Below the pieces are notes generated by a model. That model saw nothing but the letters and a program-made list of their open reading frames with translations. It did not search any database and was not told the DNA's origin. The translations under genes were made by a program, and so were the position numbers. A stretch of DNA of 64,000 nt, taken from contig NZ_ATUX01000006.1 of the NCBI RefSeq assembly GCF_000420425.1, forward strand, positions 1-64,000. Reading direction: 5' to 3'. Positions 46,096 to 56,760 of the stretch are shown here, piece by piece; the stretch's first letter is position 1; the number at the start of each line of letters is the position of its first letter. The stretch comes from Schaalia vaccimaxillae DSM 15804 (GTDB lineage: Bacteria; Actinomycetota; Actinomycetes; Actinomycetales; Actinomycetaceae).

Positions 46096-46392
46096 ATGAC
46101 TTCCCAGACGCGGCACGCTTTAACTCGCCTGATCGATGCCTTCGAGACGCACTTTGCCTTGGCTCAACTCGGTGAAGACTCTGACGCCGACGCGTTAGAA
46201 GCCGCTGAGGAACAGCTACGCAATGCGTTCTTCACCTACGATGACGAACTCTTCACTCGCTTCGGCGTTGAATTGCCTTTCGACCTTCTCGATGAAGAAG
46301 ATGACGAGGATTTCGACGAGGACGAAGAAGAGGACTTCGACGATGTAGACGAGGACGATGAAGACGATGACTTCATCGACGTGGATGACTAA
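46096..46392 (+). CDS. small protein with polyacidic tail
   Basis: A 98-residue protein. Residues 1-70 are predicted helical (HALTRLIDAFETHFALAQLG, AAEEQLRNAFFTYDDELFTR). The last ~33 residues are almost only Asp and Glu with Phe/Val, giving a very acidic protein. I do not recognise a family. Acidic tails of this kind can mimic nucleic acid or bind basic proteins, which is speculative. It has its own likely promoter and a strong terminator. Confidence 0.72.
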   Translation: MTSQTRHALTRLIDAFETHFALAQLGEDSDADALEAAEEQLRNAFFTYDDELFTRFGVELPFDLLDEEDDEDFDEDEEEDFDDVDEDDEDDDFIDVDD

Positions 46393-49989: not shown

Positions 49990-51039
49990 ATGAGTGAAGA
50001 GATGACGACAAATACCGACGTTGCAATCGGACAGCAGAACAGGCGAGGTCCTCTCAGGGTCGGGGACCGAGTTCAAGTTCGCGATCCGAAAGGTCGGTTC
50101 CACCAGGTGATCCTCGTCGAAGGTGGGCGCTTCCAGTCAAACCGCGGAGGCTTCAGTCACGATGAGCTCATCGGACGCCCTGACGGGCAGGTTATTACCA
50201 CCGATGAAGGCCGCCAATTCCAAATTATGCGCCCCCTTCAAGTTGACTATGTCATGGCAATGCCTCGTGGTGCGGCTGTCGTGTACCCAAAGGATGCGGG
50301 AGTAATCATCCACATGGGTGATATCTTCCCCGGTGCCACAGTTGTCGAAGCCGGTGCTGGTTCTGGTGCGCTATCCCTGGCTCTGCTCAACGCGGTTGGT
50401 CCGCAAGGCAAACTCATCTCAGTGGAACGACGCGAGGATTTCGCCCAGATCGCCAAAGCCAATGTTGACCTGTGGTTCGGAACCGAACATCCTGCGTGGG
50501 ATCTTCAAGTCGGCGACGTGGAAACGGTACTCAACTCCCTAGAGGCTTCCAGCGTCGACCGAGTTGTGCTGGATATGCTGGCACCCTGGGAGAATCTTCA
50601 AGCAGTTTCGCGCGCGCTGATCCCCGGAGGCGTCCTCGTCTGTTACGTAGCCACCGTCACCCAAATGTCGCGCCTCGTCGAAGACCTGCGAGCCACCGGA
50701 CAATACACCGATCCGATTGCATGGGAAGATATGCGACGTGAATGGCACCTTGATGGGCTCGCCGTTCGTCCCCAGCATCGCATGGTTGCCCACACGGGAT
50801 TCCTTCTAATCACCCGTCGACTTGCTCCCGGGGTCGATCCGCAGGAGCGTTCGACTCGCCCGGCAAAAGCTGCCGAGGGCCTTCAAGGCCAGTGGAACGG
50901 CGTTCAAGACTGGAGTGAAGAATCCGTTGGCGTCAGAGTTTCCTCTCCCAAGAAAGTCCGCAAGGTCCTGCGAGACACGACGAATCAGGCTGACACGTGG
51001 GTCGAGGATCGTCGACAAGGACAGTCAGATGACCAGTGA
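49990..51039 (+). CDS. trmI: tRNA (adenine-58-N1)-methyltransferase TrmI
   Basis: A 349-residue tRNA m1A58 methyltransferase. It has an N-terminal beta domain (GDRVQVRDPKGRFHQVIL), SAM motif TVVEAGAGSGALSLALL and the catalytic LDMLAPWENL motif. The homologue is Rv2118c, also next to the pupylation genes. A possible -10, TAGAAT (49975-49980), lies nine bases before the ATG. The C-terminal ~60 residues are polar and the stop overlaps the ARC start. Confidence 0.94.
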   Translation: MSEEMTTNTDVAIGQQNRRGPLRVGDRVQVRDPKGRFHQVILVEGGRFQSNRGGFSHDELIGRPDGQVITTDEGRQFQIMRPLQVDYVMAMPRGAAVVYPKDAGVIIHMGDIFPGATVVEAGAGSGALSLALLNAVGPQGKLISVERREDFAQIAKANVDLWFGTEHPAWDLQVGDVETVLNSLEASSVDRVVLDMLAPWENLQAVSRALIPGGVLVCYVATVTQMSRLVEDLRATGQYTDPIAWEDMRREWHLDGLAVRPQHRMVAHTGFLLITRRLAPGVDPQERSTRPAKAAEGLQGQWNGVQDWSEESVGVRVSSPKKVRKVLRDTTNQADTWVEDRRQGQSDDQ

Positions 51040-52585
51040 TTTTTCCGCTCATCAAGTCGATGAGATGCAGCGCCTGATTGTCTCTCTCGAAGGTAAGAAC
51101 GAACGACTTTCCCAGGCACTCACGCAAGTGCGGGGCCAACTCATACAAATGCAGGCCCAGCTCCAGGAAGTTAATCGTCCTCCGCAGACTCTGGCTCTCT
51201 TTGTTTGCGCCGATATTGCCTCACGTCAAATCGAAGCGATTGTTAACGGGCGACATATGCGTTTGGCCGTAGCGCCCGCTCTAGACCTCGCATCCTTGTC
51301 CTACGGACAGTGGGTCAGGGTTGATGACAAGATGATCGCGGTTGCCGCCGACGTCTTCCCTCGTACCGGCCAAATGGCGTCAATCCTTGAAATGGTTGGC
51401 GACGACCGCGTTCTCGTGGCGGCTGATGGCGGACAAGAACACCTCCTGATATTGGCCGGTCCTCTGCGGCACGGGAACCTGCGACCCGGAGATTCTCTGG
51501 CGGTTGATTTGCGATCCGGCATCGCTTTCGAACGCATTATCCGCTCTGATGTCGAACAGTTGCTCACGCCAGAAATCCCTGAAACCACCTATGGTGACAT
51601 TGGCGGCCTCGGCGAGCAGATTCAACAAGTGCGCGACGCTATTGAACTTCCTTTCCGCCACCCGCAGATGTATCGAAATTACGGTTTGCGGCCCCCCAAA
51701 GGCATTCTTCTGTATGGGCCGCCTGGTTCTGGCAAGACGCTCATTGCCAAGGCCGTCGCCAACTCACTCTCAAAGCAGGGGAGCGGCAAACAGACATACT
51801 TCCTGTCGATTAAGGGCCCCGAACTGCTCAATAAGTTCGTCGGTGAAACTGAACGTCAGATCCGAGCAATCTTTGCTCGCGCCAGATCCCTTGCCGCAGG
51901 AGATGTTCCAGTCGTCATCTTCTTTGACGAGATGGAGGCTCTGTTTAGAACCCGAGGGACAGGCGTGTCCAGCGACGTCGAAACCATGATCGTTCCCCAG
52001 CTCTTGGCCGAAATGGATGGCGTCGAATCTTTGGATAATGTCGTCATTATTGGAGCATCAAACCGTGCTGACATGATCGATCCTGCAGTTCTACGGCCGG
52101 GGCGCCTCGATGTTCGCATTCGAGTTGAACGACCAGATAGGCAAGGAGCTAGCGAAATCTTCTCGAAGTACCTCACGCGAAACATTCCACTGCACCAAGA
52201 CGAGGTCGACGCCGCAGGCTCGAGCCAAAATGCTGTTGATGCAATGATCGAATCTGCAGTAGATCGCCTCTTTGTCGAGGACGAGACAACCGCACTTTTT
52301 GATGCAACTTTGTCCTCTGGTCGAATCAAACGCATTCATCTGCACGACATTGTTTCGGGAGCGATGATCGCTGGCATCGTTGAACGAGCAAAGAAGCATG
52401 CGATTAAAGAATCTCTCGATGGCGTTGACCGAGGAATGTCAATGCATCACCTGCTCATGGGTGTCTCTGAAGAAATGAATGAGTCTGTGGAGTTGGCTGC
52501 GACCTCATCCCTGGAAGATTGGTCGCGCACCATCGGCCTACGCGAGGAGATTGTCAGCATTTCGCCTCTGGGAGCCCATGCATGA
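51029..52585 (+). CDS. arc: ARC (Mpa-type) AAA ATPase without the proteasome-docking tail
   Basis: A 518-residue ring ATPase of the pupylation system. It has an N-terminal coiled coil (residues ~8-45) that binds Pup, an OB region, and an AAA domain with Walker A YGPPGSGKTLIAKAVA (~230) and Walker B VIFFDEMEALFRTRG (~296). The protein ends ISPLGAHA. Mycobacterial Mpa ends GQYL, which opens the 20S core gate, so that motif is absent here. I chose ATG 51029 (MTSDFSAHQVDEM), 11 bases inside trmI; the longer frame is out of family. It overlaps dop. Confidence 0.94.
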   Translation: MTSDFSAHQVDEMQRLIVSLEGKNERLSQALTQVRGQLIQMQAQLQEVNRPPQTLALFVCADIASRQIEAIVNGRHMRLAVAPALDLASLSYGQWVRVDDKMIAVAADVFPRTGQMASILEMVGDDRVLVAADGGQEHLLILAGPLRHGNLRPGDSLAVDLRSGIAFERIIRSDVEQLLTPEIPETTYGDIGGLGEQIQQVRDAIELPFRHPQMYRNYGLRPPKGILLYGPPGSGKTLIAKAVANSLSKQGSGKQTYFLSIKGPELLNKFVGETERQIRAIFARARSLAAGDVPVVIFFDEMEALFRTRGTGVSSDVETMIVPQLLAEMDGVESLDNVVIIGASNRADMIDPAVLRPGRLDVRIRVERPDRQGASEIFSKYLTRNIPLHQDEVDAAGSSQNAVDAMIESAVDRLFVEDETTALFDATLSSGRIKRIHLHDIVSGAMIAGIVERAKKHAIKESLDGVDRGMSMHHLLMGVSEEMNESVELAATSSLEDWSRTIGLREEIVSISPLGAHA

Positions 52586-54117
52586 CAACCCAACGCATTA
52601 TTGCCACCGAAACCGAATACGGTGTGTATCGCCCCGGCGATCCCTGGGCCAATCCCGTGGCTCTATCAAGCCAGGTCGTGCGTGCCTACGCCGAGCTGTC
52701 TCGAAATGGAACAGCCACCGAAGGTTTAGGACCTGTGCGCTGGGACTACACGGCTGAAGACCCTCTCAACGACCTCCGCGGGATGCGGATGTCGCGCGCA
52801 GCAGCAGATCCGTCCCTACTCACTGATGACCCCTACCACCTTGCTCCTTCAGGGGGAACTGAAAGGGTCGCACGTCCCACCCCGGAAGAGTTGGCTCTGC
52901 CTGCTGCGACAACAGCGGTACTGACCAACGGAGCCAGGCTCTACGTCGATCATGCCCACCCCGAATACTCTGCTCCCGAAACCTTGGGGGCAATGGATGC
53001 CGTCCTTTGGGATCGTGCCGGTGAAGTCATTGCCGACCGAATGATGCGCGCTGCCGCCGATGCCGGGGACGGGCAGATCGTCCTCGTCAAGAACAACACG
53101 GATGGCAAAGGTGCTGCTTATGGCACCCACGAGAACTACCAGATGCGCCGCGACGTTGATCTTGATCATGTCGTACGGGGTTTGACTCCATTCATGGTTT
53201 CGCGGCCCGTGACCTGCGGGGCTGGCAGAGTCGGCATCGGGCAAAAGAGTCAAGTTCCTGGCTTCCAGCTCTCCCAGCGTGCTGACTTCGTGGAAAATGA
53301 AGTTGGGTTGGAAACGACCTTCAACCGGCCCATTATCAACACCCGCGATGAGCCCCATGCTGACCCCTCGCGTTTTCGTAGGCTTCACATCATCGGCGGT
53401 GACGGCAATATGTTCGACTGCTCAGCACTCTTGCGCTTTGGCACCACGTCGCTTGTCATTTGGGCTATTGAGCAGGGCATTGGGCTTGAATGGGAATCGC
53501 TCGCCCTTGACGATGCTGTCCAAGAAACATGGAACTTCTCCCACGACCCGCATTTGAATTACCGAGCCACAACCGCGGGCGGTCGTTCATACAATGCGGC
53601 CGAACTGCAGCAGGTCTACCTCGACCTGGTCGTCGCAACTTTTGACCGCACTGGAATTGAGCCGAGTGAGGAAGACCGTAGAGTCCTTGATCTGTGGCAA
53701 TCCGTGTTGGAGCGCATGCGCAATGATCTTTTCTCCGTGGCAACCCAGGTTGAATGGGTGGGCAAGTATCAGCTTGTTAAACGGCAAAAGGAACGTGCAC
53801 AGCTGGACTGGAGTGATCCGCGTCTGGCAGCGATTGACTTGCAGTGGGCGGATCTGCGCCCCGACAAGGGACTCGCCTTTAAGTTGGGTCGCGCAGGACT
53901 CATTGAGAGGCTCTTTAACGATGAGGAAGTGCAAAGAGCCGCAGATTGTGCTCCAACAAACACACGCGCCTCTATCAGAGGTCATGCGGTTGCCAACGAC
54001 CCAGGATTGGTGAAAGCCTCGTGGACGTCTCTTGTGCATGACCCAGGGCAGGGGGATCTCGTTCGTGTTCCTCTGCCTGACGCACGACAGCTCCACACGC
54101 CATCATTACAGGATTAA
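52582..54117 (+). CDS. dop: depupylase / Pup deamidase Dop
   Basis: A 511-residue protein of the carboxylate-amine ligase fold. It begins TQRIIATETEYGVYRPGD, the nucleotide-site motif, and has HPEYSAPETLG, NNTDGKGAAYGTHENY and NTRDEPHAD. Dop deamidates Pup ending in GGQ to GGE and removes Pup from substrates. ATG 52582 overlaps the ARC stop (ATGA). It is about the length of mycobacterial Dop (505). Confidence 0.96.
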   Translation: MTTQRIIATETEYGVYRPGDPWANPVALSSQVVRAYAELSRNGTATEGLGPVRWDYTAEDPLNDLRGMRMSRAAADPSLLTDDPYHLAPSGGTERVARPTPEELALPAATTAVLTNGARLYVDHAHPEYSAPETLGAMDAVLWDRAGEVIADRMMRAAADAGDGQIVLVKNNTDGKGAAYGTHENYQMRRDVDLDHVVRGLTPFMVSRPVTCGAGRVGIGQKSQVPGFQLSQRADFVENEVGLETTFNRPIINTRDEPHADPSRFRRLHIIGGDGNMFDCSALLRFGTTSLVIWAIEQGIGLEWESLALDDAVQETWNFSHDPHLNYRATTAGGRSYNAAELQQVYLDLVVATFDRTGIEPSEEDRRVLDLWQSVLERMRNDLFSVATQVEWVGKYQLVKRQKERAQLDWSDPRLAAIDLQWADLRPDKGLAFKLGRAGLIERLFNDEEVQRAADCAPTNTRASIRGHAVANDPGLVKASWTSLVHDPGQGDLVRVPLPDARQLHTPSLQD

Positions 54118-54153
54118 TGGGCGCTTCAGCGCCGCAGATCAGGAGAAAAATCA

Positions 54154-54336
54154 ATGTCTCTCAACCAACTTTTTGCTGGATCTGGCTCCGATGACCATTC
54201 GGACGAGGACGGAGCCGCCGGCCAGGTTCAAGCGCAGACCAACTCCATTGACGACCTTTTAGACGAAATCGACACCGTGCTCGAGACTAACGCGCAGGCT
54301 TTCGTCCAGGGCTTTGTTCAGAAGGGTGGCCAGTGA
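54154..54336 (+). CDS. pup: prokaryotic ubiquitin-like protein Pup
   Basis: A 60-residue disordered protein modifier, ending VQGFVQKGGQ. The C-terminal Gln must be deamidated by Dop before PafA can attach it to lysines. The ARC-binding helical stretch is IDDLLDEIDTVLETN. The reading frame has AGGAG upstream of its ATG. It sits directly between dop and pafA; no prcB or prcA follows. Confidence 0.96.
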   Translation: MSLNQLFAGSGSDDHSDEDGAAGQVQAQTNSIDDLLDEIDTVLETNAQAFVQGFVQKGGQ

Positions 54337-54337
54337 G

Positions 54338-55726
54338 GTGAGGCGCAGAGTCGTCGGAATCGAGACGGAGTATGGGCTGACAGCCGCCACAACGACAGGG
54401 CAGCCGTCCAGCATGGATGCCGATCATGCGGCGCGCCTCCTCTTCGAGCCTCTGCTACACCGAGGACGCTCCTCCAATCTCTTCCTACGCAATGGTGGAA
54501 GGCTCTATCTCGACGTCGGCTCACATCCGGAGTACGCGACCGCCGAATGCGATCAACTCATAGATGTGCTCGCTCAAGACCGAGCGGGCTCTCAGATGCT
54601 TGCCCAGCTCGCCCAGCAAGCTGACGCGGCACTCGATGATCTCGGTGCCAGCGAAAGGCTTCATCTTTTCCGCAACAACGTGGACTCACAGGCAAACTCT
54701 TATGGCTGCCACGAAAACTATTTGCTCCACCGACGTAGAGACTTCCGGCAGGTCGCAGACGCTCTCGTTTCCTTCTTCATTACACGCCAGATTGTGGTGG
54801 GTAACGGATGGCTTAAGCCGACGCCGTCGGGAGTCCGGTTGACGTTTTCGCAGCGTAGCGAGCAAATGTGGGATGCAGTGTCTGCTGCAACCACGCGATC
54901 ACGTCCAATTATCAATACCCGCGACGAACCTTTAGCTGATTCCGGTTCATACCGGCGTATGCACGTCATTGTGGGAGATACGAATGTCGCCGAGCCCACA
55001 ACTGCCCTCAAAGTTGGTATGACCCAGATGCTGCTGGAAGCCATAGAGGATGGGCTACATATTGAAGATCTTTCCTTAGCGGACCCCATGCGAGCGATCC
55101 GTGAAATCAATTCCGATCTGACGGGCACAACGTCTGTAGATTTGGCGGATGGACGTTCTATGACTCCCGTTGGAATCCAACGTGAGATCCGCGGACGCAT
55201 CCTGGAGGCAGTTGACGAGTCCAGCCTAGATCCGATCCATGCATACGTTGCCGACCTGTGGGACAGGGGACTGGATGCTATCGAGTCGGGGGACTGGTCG
55301 GGCGTTGATACTGAACTTGATATTGCTATTAAACGTAAATTGCTGACCTCTTATGCCAGTCGGCAGTCGGCGTCTTTTGACGATGCACGGGTTGCTAGGT
55401 TGGAGCTTTCCTACCATGACATCACTTCCGCGGGCCTGCTTGAACGTATGGAAAGTGCAGGCCTGGTGAGGAGATTGACAACGCGTGCGCAAGTTCGCGA
55501 AGCCTTAACGGTGCCTCCGCGAACCACCCGGGCACACCTGCGTGGCCGCATTATTGCTGCTGCGGAGGACACGCGAACGGATCTCACTGCTGACTGGGTG
55601 CATGTGCGAGTGGACGACCATTCGGCAGCTCCATTGTCTTTACAGGATCCACTGGCCAACGAAGACCCTCGTGTCGATGCCCTCATTGAATCGATGACGC
55701 GTCTCCAAGGCGATTTACCCGCATGA
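54338..55726 (+). CDS. pafA: Pup ligase PafA
   Basis: A 462-residue Pup-protein ligase that joins the C-terminal Glu of Pup to lysines with ATP. It shares RVVGIETEYGL with Dop and has HPEYATAECDQL, NNVDSQANSYGCHENY and INTRDEPLADSG. I chose GTG 54338, two bases past the pup stop, because it gives the family N-terminus (RRRVVGIETEYG); an ATG at 54314 inside pup is less likely. It overlaps the FKBP gene. Confidence 0.95.
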   Translation: MRRRVVGIETEYGLTAATTTGQPSSMDADHAARLLFEPLLHRGRSSNLFLRNGGRLYLDVGSHPEYATAECDQLIDVLAQDRAGSQMLAQLAQQADAALDDLGASERLHLFRNNVDSQANSYGCHENYLLHRRRDFRQVADALVSFFITRQIVVGNGWLKPTPSGVRLTFSQRSEQMWDAVSAATTRSRPIINTRDEPLADSGSYRRMHVIVGDTNVAEPTTALKVGMTQMLLEAIEDGLHIEDLSLADPMRAIREINSDLTGTTSVDLADGRSMTPVGIQREIRGRILEAVDESSLDPIHAYVADLWDRGLDAIESGDWSGVDTELDIAIKRKLLTSYASRQSASFDDARVARLELSYHDITSAGLLERMESAGLVRRLTTRAQVREALTVPPRTTRAHLRGRIIAAAEDTRTDLTADWVHVRVDDHSAAPLSLQDPLANEDPRVDALIESMTRLQGDLPA

Positions 55727-56760
55727 CGATTCCTATACGCTCGCAGGTCGCAGCGGCTTCGGGGGAACATCGTCCGAAGCCGCTCAAACGCGTGCTATTG
55801 CCTCTTATTGCTATTGTCGTTGCCCTGAGCGTGACGCTGCTGACCGTGTTCCTCATGCAACACGGCCAGGATGACTCAGAAGTCGAAACGACCCCGCAGT
55901 CGATTTGGTCGGTCTTTGATGCTGTGTCGGTGTCGGGCAGGGTAGGGGCGGTTCCCGTTGTGGCCGTTAATGGTCAAATCAATGTGAATGCGATGAAAAG
56001 CCGCGTTCTTGCCAGCGGTAGCGGAAGAACAATTACGCAAGATGCGCCGGTCCTGCTCTCAGTCACAGCCTTTGATGGTGACGATGGCACGAACCTTTCG
56101 CCCCAAGGTCGACCCCAGCTCATGGTTGGACGCGCCGACGCTGACACCGTTGGACAAGACATCCTGAATTTGGTGGTGGGACAAGCCGAAGGAGCTCGAA
56201 TCCTCGTTGTACGGCCAATCGCACCAGAACAGGGCGCGCAAGGATCCTCATCTTCGGTGGAAATCGACGTGATCGACATTTTGGCGTCCATTGCCTATGG
56301 GGATGAAGTCACAGGCGAGCAAGCGGGCTCCCTCCAGGTGACTATGCGCGACGAAGGCCCCGTAATTAAACATGATGAGCAAGTGCCCGGCGGACTGACT
56401 GTTCAAACTTTGATTTCAGGTGCTGGAGGGCAGGTACTTGAAACGGATCTTGTGGTGGCTCAGTTTTCTGTTGTGGGATGGAATGACGGTGTTGTGCGTG
56501 CTTCAACCTGGCAGACCGGAATTCCCGAGTTGGTTGATATGAACACCGCGATGGTGGGACTGCGTCAGGCTCTGGTTGATCAACGTGTCGGTTCTCGACT
56601 GGCAATTTCAATTCCGCCTGATATGGCCGAGGGCGATGACACTTTGTGCGTCGTCATTGATATTTTGGGAACTCAACCTTCCACCGTTTCTCAACCTGAA
56701 CAAGATTTTCCCCAATCTCAATCCGGCACCTCGGACGAAAACACCAAACAGTCCGGCTAA
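55723..56760 (+). CDS. FKBP-type peptidyl-prolyl isomerase, membrane-anchored
   Basis: A 345-residue protein with one N-terminal membrane helix ([22 protein letters not shown], residues ~24-45) and an extracytoplasmic part. The C-terminal segment [28 protein letters not shown] matches an FKBP domain. An earlier segment [16 protein letters not shown] may be a second, diverged repeat. The final ~30 residues are Gln/Ser/Asn-rich. The ATG overlaps the pafA stop; in other actinobacteria an FKBP gene also follows pafA. Confidence 0.8.

Follow-up and report, generated by a model that had tools for sequence, protein, structure and literature searches.

What purpose does tagging proteins with Pup serve in a genome that has no proteasome? 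This question about the role of a ubiquitin-like tag is raised by the arc-dop-pup-pafA locus of Schaalia vaccimaxillae DSM 15804 (family Actinomycetaceae), located at positions 51029-55726 on the forward strand of a 64,000-nucleotide stretch of contig NZ_ATUX01000006.1 (the window). Our analysis shows an intact, standard proteasome-less pupylation locus, in which the tag is probably reversible and the AAA ATPase ARC probably exposes the tagged protein to the depupylase Dop. The locus is not a new case but a further instance of the Corynebacterium-type proteasome-less pupylation locus, ordinary for its kind, and the main interest lies in its relatives, above all in a rewritten ARC tail.

The four genes follow one another on the forward strand with overlaps or short gaps, as the original prediction had described; the coordinates were read directly, and all four products scored over their NCBIfam cut-offs. 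The arc gene (51029-52585) encodes a 518-residue AAA ATPase of the ARC/Mpa family, identified by TIGR03689 (681 bits, cut-off 505), by its motifs (Walker A GPPGSGKT, Walker B FFDEME, and pore loop NKFVGETE), and by Protein Data Bank (PDB) matches, the best being 7ljf and 7px9. Its ATG at 51029 falls in an 11-base overlap with the end of the methyltransferase gene that precedes it, and its stop codon TGA occupies 52583-52585. The dop gene (52582-54117) starts at 52582, overlapping the end of arc (ATGA), and stops at 54117; it encodes a 511-residue Pup deamidase/depupylase with the catalytic loop YVDHAHPEYSAPE (TIGR03688, 544 bits, cut-off 492; PDB 9cku and 4b0r). Next, pup (54154-54336) encodes a protein of 60 residues over the cut-offs of both PF05639 and TIGR03687 (69 bits, cut-off 41 for the latter), and because this Pup ends in GGQ, deamidation is needed before ligation. 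A single base separates the pup stop codon from the GTG at 54338 that opens pafA (54338-55726), which encodes a Pup ligase of 462 residues with the catalytic loop YLDVGSHPEYATAE (TIGR03686, 581 bits, cut-off 551; PDB 4b0t and 4bjr). Catalytic motifs are kept in Dop, PafA, and ARC. The one-base spacing between pup and pafA recurs in 33/33 fetched loci of the genus, and all four genes are present in 32 of the 33, the sole exception being G196 (84% complete), where most of arc is missing beside an N.

The genome holding the window (2,338,426 bases on 13 contigs; not finished, 100% complete) was searched for the 20S core genes prcA and prcB with PF00227, a family that also covers HslV; the match of the Escherichia coli control is presumably through HslV. 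No PF00227 protein was found, meaning that the genome encodes no 20S core and that the earlier claim of missing prcB/prcA holds beyond the window, the genome-wide search having been named at the time as the check that could overturn it. The 200 sampled Actinomycetaceae genomes likewise contained no PF00227 protein. Since 166 of the 297 genomes of the order did match, the search works on relatives. Bpa, which accompanies the 20S core (PMC8223512), was searched for as PF10759 and was absent from the genome of the window and from the rest of the 26 family genomes checked (own included). The same search detected it in six of nine core-bearing genomes, the others being G257, G361, and G336. A hidden or divergent proteasome is ruled out by the lack of PF00227 across the 200 genomes together with the lack of Bpa in the 26, and HslV as a substitute core is ruled out by the absence of the family that covers it. 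ARC nevertheless scored over its cut-off in 187 of the 200 core-less family genomes, which implies that it is retained for a purpose unrelated to that core. Two genomes displayed split genes: G336 (L219) had PrcB matched in two pieces within one open frame and no Bpa, while G445 had PrcB pieces in different frames and ARC in two frames. Both keep the GQYL tail of ARC, and insertion, sequence error, or decay could each account for the splits.

Regarding the C-terminus of ARC, the window protein ends in IVSISPLGAHA and bears no docking tail; 18 residues follow its DWSR motif, compared with a median of 38 among 32 ARCs that end in GQYL. The SPLGAHA end without GQYL, as first described, was thus confirmed, and a longer form of the protein does not exist, as the frame closes at the TGA given above. 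The DWSR pattern was found in 18 of the 32 ARCs fetched from the genus, with a median of 18 residues after it (range 16-37), and an HbYX/GQYL-like docking tail was present in none of the 33 genus ARCs (32 fetched plus the window's own). The genes, their motifs, and the absence of core, Bpa, and tail are all read from the sequence. The original prediction regarded the coincidence of the two absences as strengthening its case; tail loss is, however, the expected consequence of core loss, and the double absence adds little.

Loci of this type were described in 2012, when PMC3511204 reported for core-less actinobacteria that pup lies directly before pafA and that the ATPase is kept without its C-terminal motif. 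According to the same paper, the ATPase enhances depupylation in vitro, and an ATPase-plus-Dop role was suggested for proteasome-less species. In the Corynebacterium glutamicum model, pupylated ferritin is unfolded by ARC and Dop recycles Pup (PMC8223512). The idea that Pup acts here without degradation stands in one part, given that the assembly, to its own extent, rules out degradation by a 20S core; its other part, unfolding by ARC and release by Dop, is plausible but corresponds to the proposal already published for C. glutamicum ferritin (PMC8223512) and is similar to what PMC3511204 suggested for proteasome-less species. In the mechanism that we prefer, Dop would deamidate PupQ to PupE, PafA would ligate PupE to lysines, and Dop would later remove Pup. 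ARC, whose ring ATPase is still complete and has its pore loop, would most likely engage the Pup N-terminus and pull or remodel the protein that carries the tag, which would thereby become accessible to Dop rather than enter a 20S core. With prcBA, Bpa, and the ARC docking tail lost, the tag would serve as a reversible mark. The enzyme activities and all substrates are predictions, as is remodelling by ARC, which is suggested by the pore loop and ATPase motifs, by the retention of ARC in most of the family, and by the published work.

When compared to the Corynebacterium locus, the window has the same arc-dop-pup-pafA set without prcBA, the same position of pup directly before pafA, an ARC without docking motif, and a retained Dop. 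It differs in the end of Pup, which is GGQ here and Glu in C. glutamicum (PMC3511204), in belonging to a different family, and in the lack of a detected ferritin, with only a Dps-like protein found. The mycobacterial Pup-proteasome system (Mpa, Dop, Pup, PrcBA, PafA, and Bpa) shares with the window four proteins and the gene order except for prcBA, whereas the 20S core, Bpa, and the GQYL tail are missing from the window genome.

The ARC tails were surveyed in 169 distinct proteins from the fetched loci, comprising 34 from core-bearing genomes, 107 from core-less genomes of the family, and 28 from core-less genomes of other families. A GQYL end was present in 32 of the 34 core-bearing cases, although 30 of the 34 were best-scoring matches, so that this sample leans canonical relative to the 166 core-bearing genomes of the order. 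The two without it belong to G361 (L220) and G257 (L221), in which prcB/prcA lie close to arc and Bpa was not found. Among core-less genomes, 19/135 ARCs end in xYL, 18 of them within the 107 of the family: GYL in nine genomes of genus g22, one of g8, and one of g13; TRDYL in five genomes of g9; and the remaining two in a g30 genome and in a second-system copy of g14. In the other families, 27 of the 28 are tailless and G423 ends in TGTYL. The GYL, DYL, or TYL ends without PF00227 or Bpa were located at L001-L006, L011, L013, L015-L017, L019, L020, L022, L027, L029, L128, and L160. The rule "no core, no tail" is consequently ruled out for the family, both by these ends and by a conserved C-terminal peptide in other genera.

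This peptide was analyzed in 44 core-less genomes of twelve related genera, with a single ARC from each genome, and reads roughly [W/F]DxxxxxGLI; the fullest form, in g26, is roughly RPVxx[W/F]DxVVx[K/E]GLI after a variable stretch. It was found at L285-L298, L305, L309-L311, L036, L119, L121, L125, L127, L130, and L132. The final two residues are both L, I, V, or M in 26/44 ARCs versus 2.3% of upstream dipeptides in the same proteins (n = 1232), and Gly occupies position -3 in 28/44; 13/44 have no such end, including all of g2, g17, and g31. An aromatic residue stands at -10 in 24 of the 31 tail-bearing sequences (picked from the 44 by their last residues, eight of them from g26) and is the majority residue there in seven of nine genera. 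When the register was shifted by genus, this total was reached in 0/20000 shifts, a control that is post hoc because the position was chosen after inspecting the tails. The Leu, Ile, and Gly codons of the tail vary synonymously, while the residues that precede it differ in both number and identity. The clade carrying the tail was defined by genus from quick trees, with a support of 89 in a tree of ARC only (LG model) and of 100 for eight of its twelve genera in a concatenated tree (mixture model, SH-aLRT only). The tail resembles a docking peptide maintained by selection in proteasome-less genomes, with a putative non-proteasomal partner for which it could serve as a short bait. It contradicts the general statement in PMC3511204 that the motif is missing from core-less species; the genus of the window is unaffected. 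In addition, the ARC end of G058 (L304) is seemingly out of frame just upstream of a GLI-type end that its congener G029 keeps.

ARC itself has been lost in some relatives. In G148 (genus g32, 98% complete, two contigs; L320) and G040 (g7, 92%, about 170 contigs; L321), dop comes immediately after trmI, and both pup and pafA are there; no ARC over cut-off was found in either genome, and neither has a proteasome. In G092 (99% complete), too, no ARC reached the cut-off, although one Pup and two ligase-family matches were found. G148 and G040 weigh against a general need for ARC, since unfolding or remodelling is apparently not required everywhere for the tagging genes to be retained. The mechanism preferred above is further qualified by the tails, as core and tail appear to be loosely coupled in the family, and by the substrate. 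Ferritin, the substrate known for ARC, went undetected in the window genome, whose single PF00210 protein is predicted to be Dps-like (best NCBIfam match Dps, 59.6 bits versus a cut-off of 114). Any PF00210 protein at all was found in 41 of 61 family genomes, leaving ferritin disassembly unsupported as a conserved job.

The strongest competitor, which we consider rather unlikely for the window, is that Pup is a purely regulatory, reversible tag comparable to mono-ubiquitin, with ARC as a minor or substrate-specific accessory and unfolding not the main output. A mono-ubiquitin-like role was suggested in PMC3511204, and the persistence of the tagging genes without the motor in two genera, alongside G092, favors it at least there; such arc-less species could show whether tagging alone suffices. 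For the family at large, the widespread retention of ARC over cut-off argues against it, as does the conservation of the Walker, pore-loop, and RPGRLD motifs in the sequences compared. Delivery of tagged proteins by ARC to another protease would fit the conserved C-terminal peptide of the sister genera, which suggests some partner; for the window it is improbable, because neither its own ARC nor the 32 fetched genus ARCs have such a tail and no protein of PF00227, HslV included, is encoded. A vestigial, decaying locus is slightly less probable still: the system can be lost, as Pup, the ligase, or both went unmatched in 7 of the 200 family genomes, but within the genus the four genes are present at every fetched locus except that of the incomplete G196. 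That prcBA is present and was missed through an assembly gap or extreme divergence can practically be dismissed, for although the genome is unfinished, no family genome matches, several of the same genus being on a single contig, and Bpa is absent too. The exposure of tagged proteins to Dop by ARC remains our preferred explanation for the window.

Second Pup systems represent another variation within the family. At least four Pup_ligase-family matches occurred in 42/200 family genomes, 41 of which also had at least two Pups, and in 0/273 genomes of the order outside the family. The 41/200 would thus be carriers of a second system by gene count, and split genes can inflate such counts. Ten genomes were read at both loci (L031-L050), with all four genes at 19 of the 20; at L042, the twentieth, the contig ends within dop. 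At the second locus of G014, the matches to pafA were spread over two frames, apparently through a late frameshift. These loci, together with L234 (Actinomyces oris CCUG 34288), amount to two divergent arc-dop-pup-pafA systems per core-less genome; G100 has two systems and no core. The eight second systems included in the concatenated tree form one group (support 95, rising to 100 when the single system of G030 is added), and this group lies within the family clade (100). PafA2 fell below the PafA cut-off in both cases tested (373 and 383 bits versus 551) and Dop2 below its own in one of two (424 bits versus 492). The second systems keep the catalytic Asp loop, but 4/8 of the PafA2 proteins have an altered INTRDEP motif, which may point to a changed activity.

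With regard to genomic context, genes being named by eye, the two first systems inspected lie between trmI-like and hisF-like genes, while the eight second systems inspected lie elsewhere, in surroundings that differ by genus. No neighboring gene was conserved across genera in these eight loci; the two second-system loci of g21 have neighbors in common. In the concatenated tree, g14 and g21 are joined by their second systems (100) but not by their first, and in the ARC-only tree one copy from g5 is placed within those of g4 (99), the g5 genome matching a metagenome-assembled record and possibly being contaminated. Transfer of second systems between genera is suggested by these placements, if weakly. 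Relatives of PafA2 from G100 at 50% identity or more occur in Actinomyces oris, johnsonii, naeslundii, bowdenii, denticolens, and vulturis and in Buchananella hordeovulneris. Within the genus of the window, G169 has two Pups and four ligase-family matches and is the only sampled member with signs of a second system.

Our literature searches returned no published account of Pup or PafA in Actinomyces or of Pup in Actinomycetaceae, and on two-copy Pup systems only PMC3511204 was found, the gene-duplication literature not having been gone through. The figure legend on duplicated systems in that paper names Leptospirillum, Saccharopolyspora, and Salinispora. Leptospirillum ferrooxidans resembles the ten Actinomycetaceae genomes in having two divergent complete systems, whereas the window genome has one system only. 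According to the legend, the Leptospirillum copies share their genetic context, in contrast to the differing surroundings of the second systems inspected here. Two Pup systems in one cell would permit tests of tag specificity.

The number of core losses behind these patterns depends on the tree. The concatenated tree recovers the family as one clade (100). The ARC-only tree does not, and places the GYL/DYL genera beside core-bearing ARCs (97), which counts against a single core loss and leaves room for repeated loss. With its 200 core-less genomes in tail-kept, tail-rewritten, tail-lost, ARC-lost, and two-system states, the family constitutes a natural experiment. We tentatively propose, as a joint scenario that is somewhat more likely to fail than to hold in full, that the Actinomycetaceae repurposed pupylation after an early core loss: one clade would have rewritten its ARC tail into a conserved peptide that binds a non-proteasomal partner (aromatic at -10, G-[L/V]-[I/L] at the end), others would have kept GYL/DYL, the clade of the window would have dropped the tail, some lineages would have gained a mobile second four-gene cassette, and at least two would have lost ARC. 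Our caution stems from the weak evidence for transfer and from the failure of the ARC-only tree to recover the family as one clade.

Finally, the gene run extends past arc-dop-pup-pafA on both sides, and both flanking genes overlap their neighbors. Upstream, a trmI-like tRNA methyltransferase gene is located at 49990-51039 on the forward strand (Pfam TrmI-like_N and GCD14). Downstream, a gene at 55723-56760 on the same strand, whose start overlaps the pafA stop codon, encodes a putative membrane-anchored protein (by eye) that is hydrophobic over an N-terminal stretch and resembles FKBP very weakly in its C-terminal part (Pfam FKBP_C, E 0.077, below cut-off). Elsewhere in the window, at 46096-46392, a short protein is encoded whose C-terminal half is extremely acidic, being rich in Asp and Glu.

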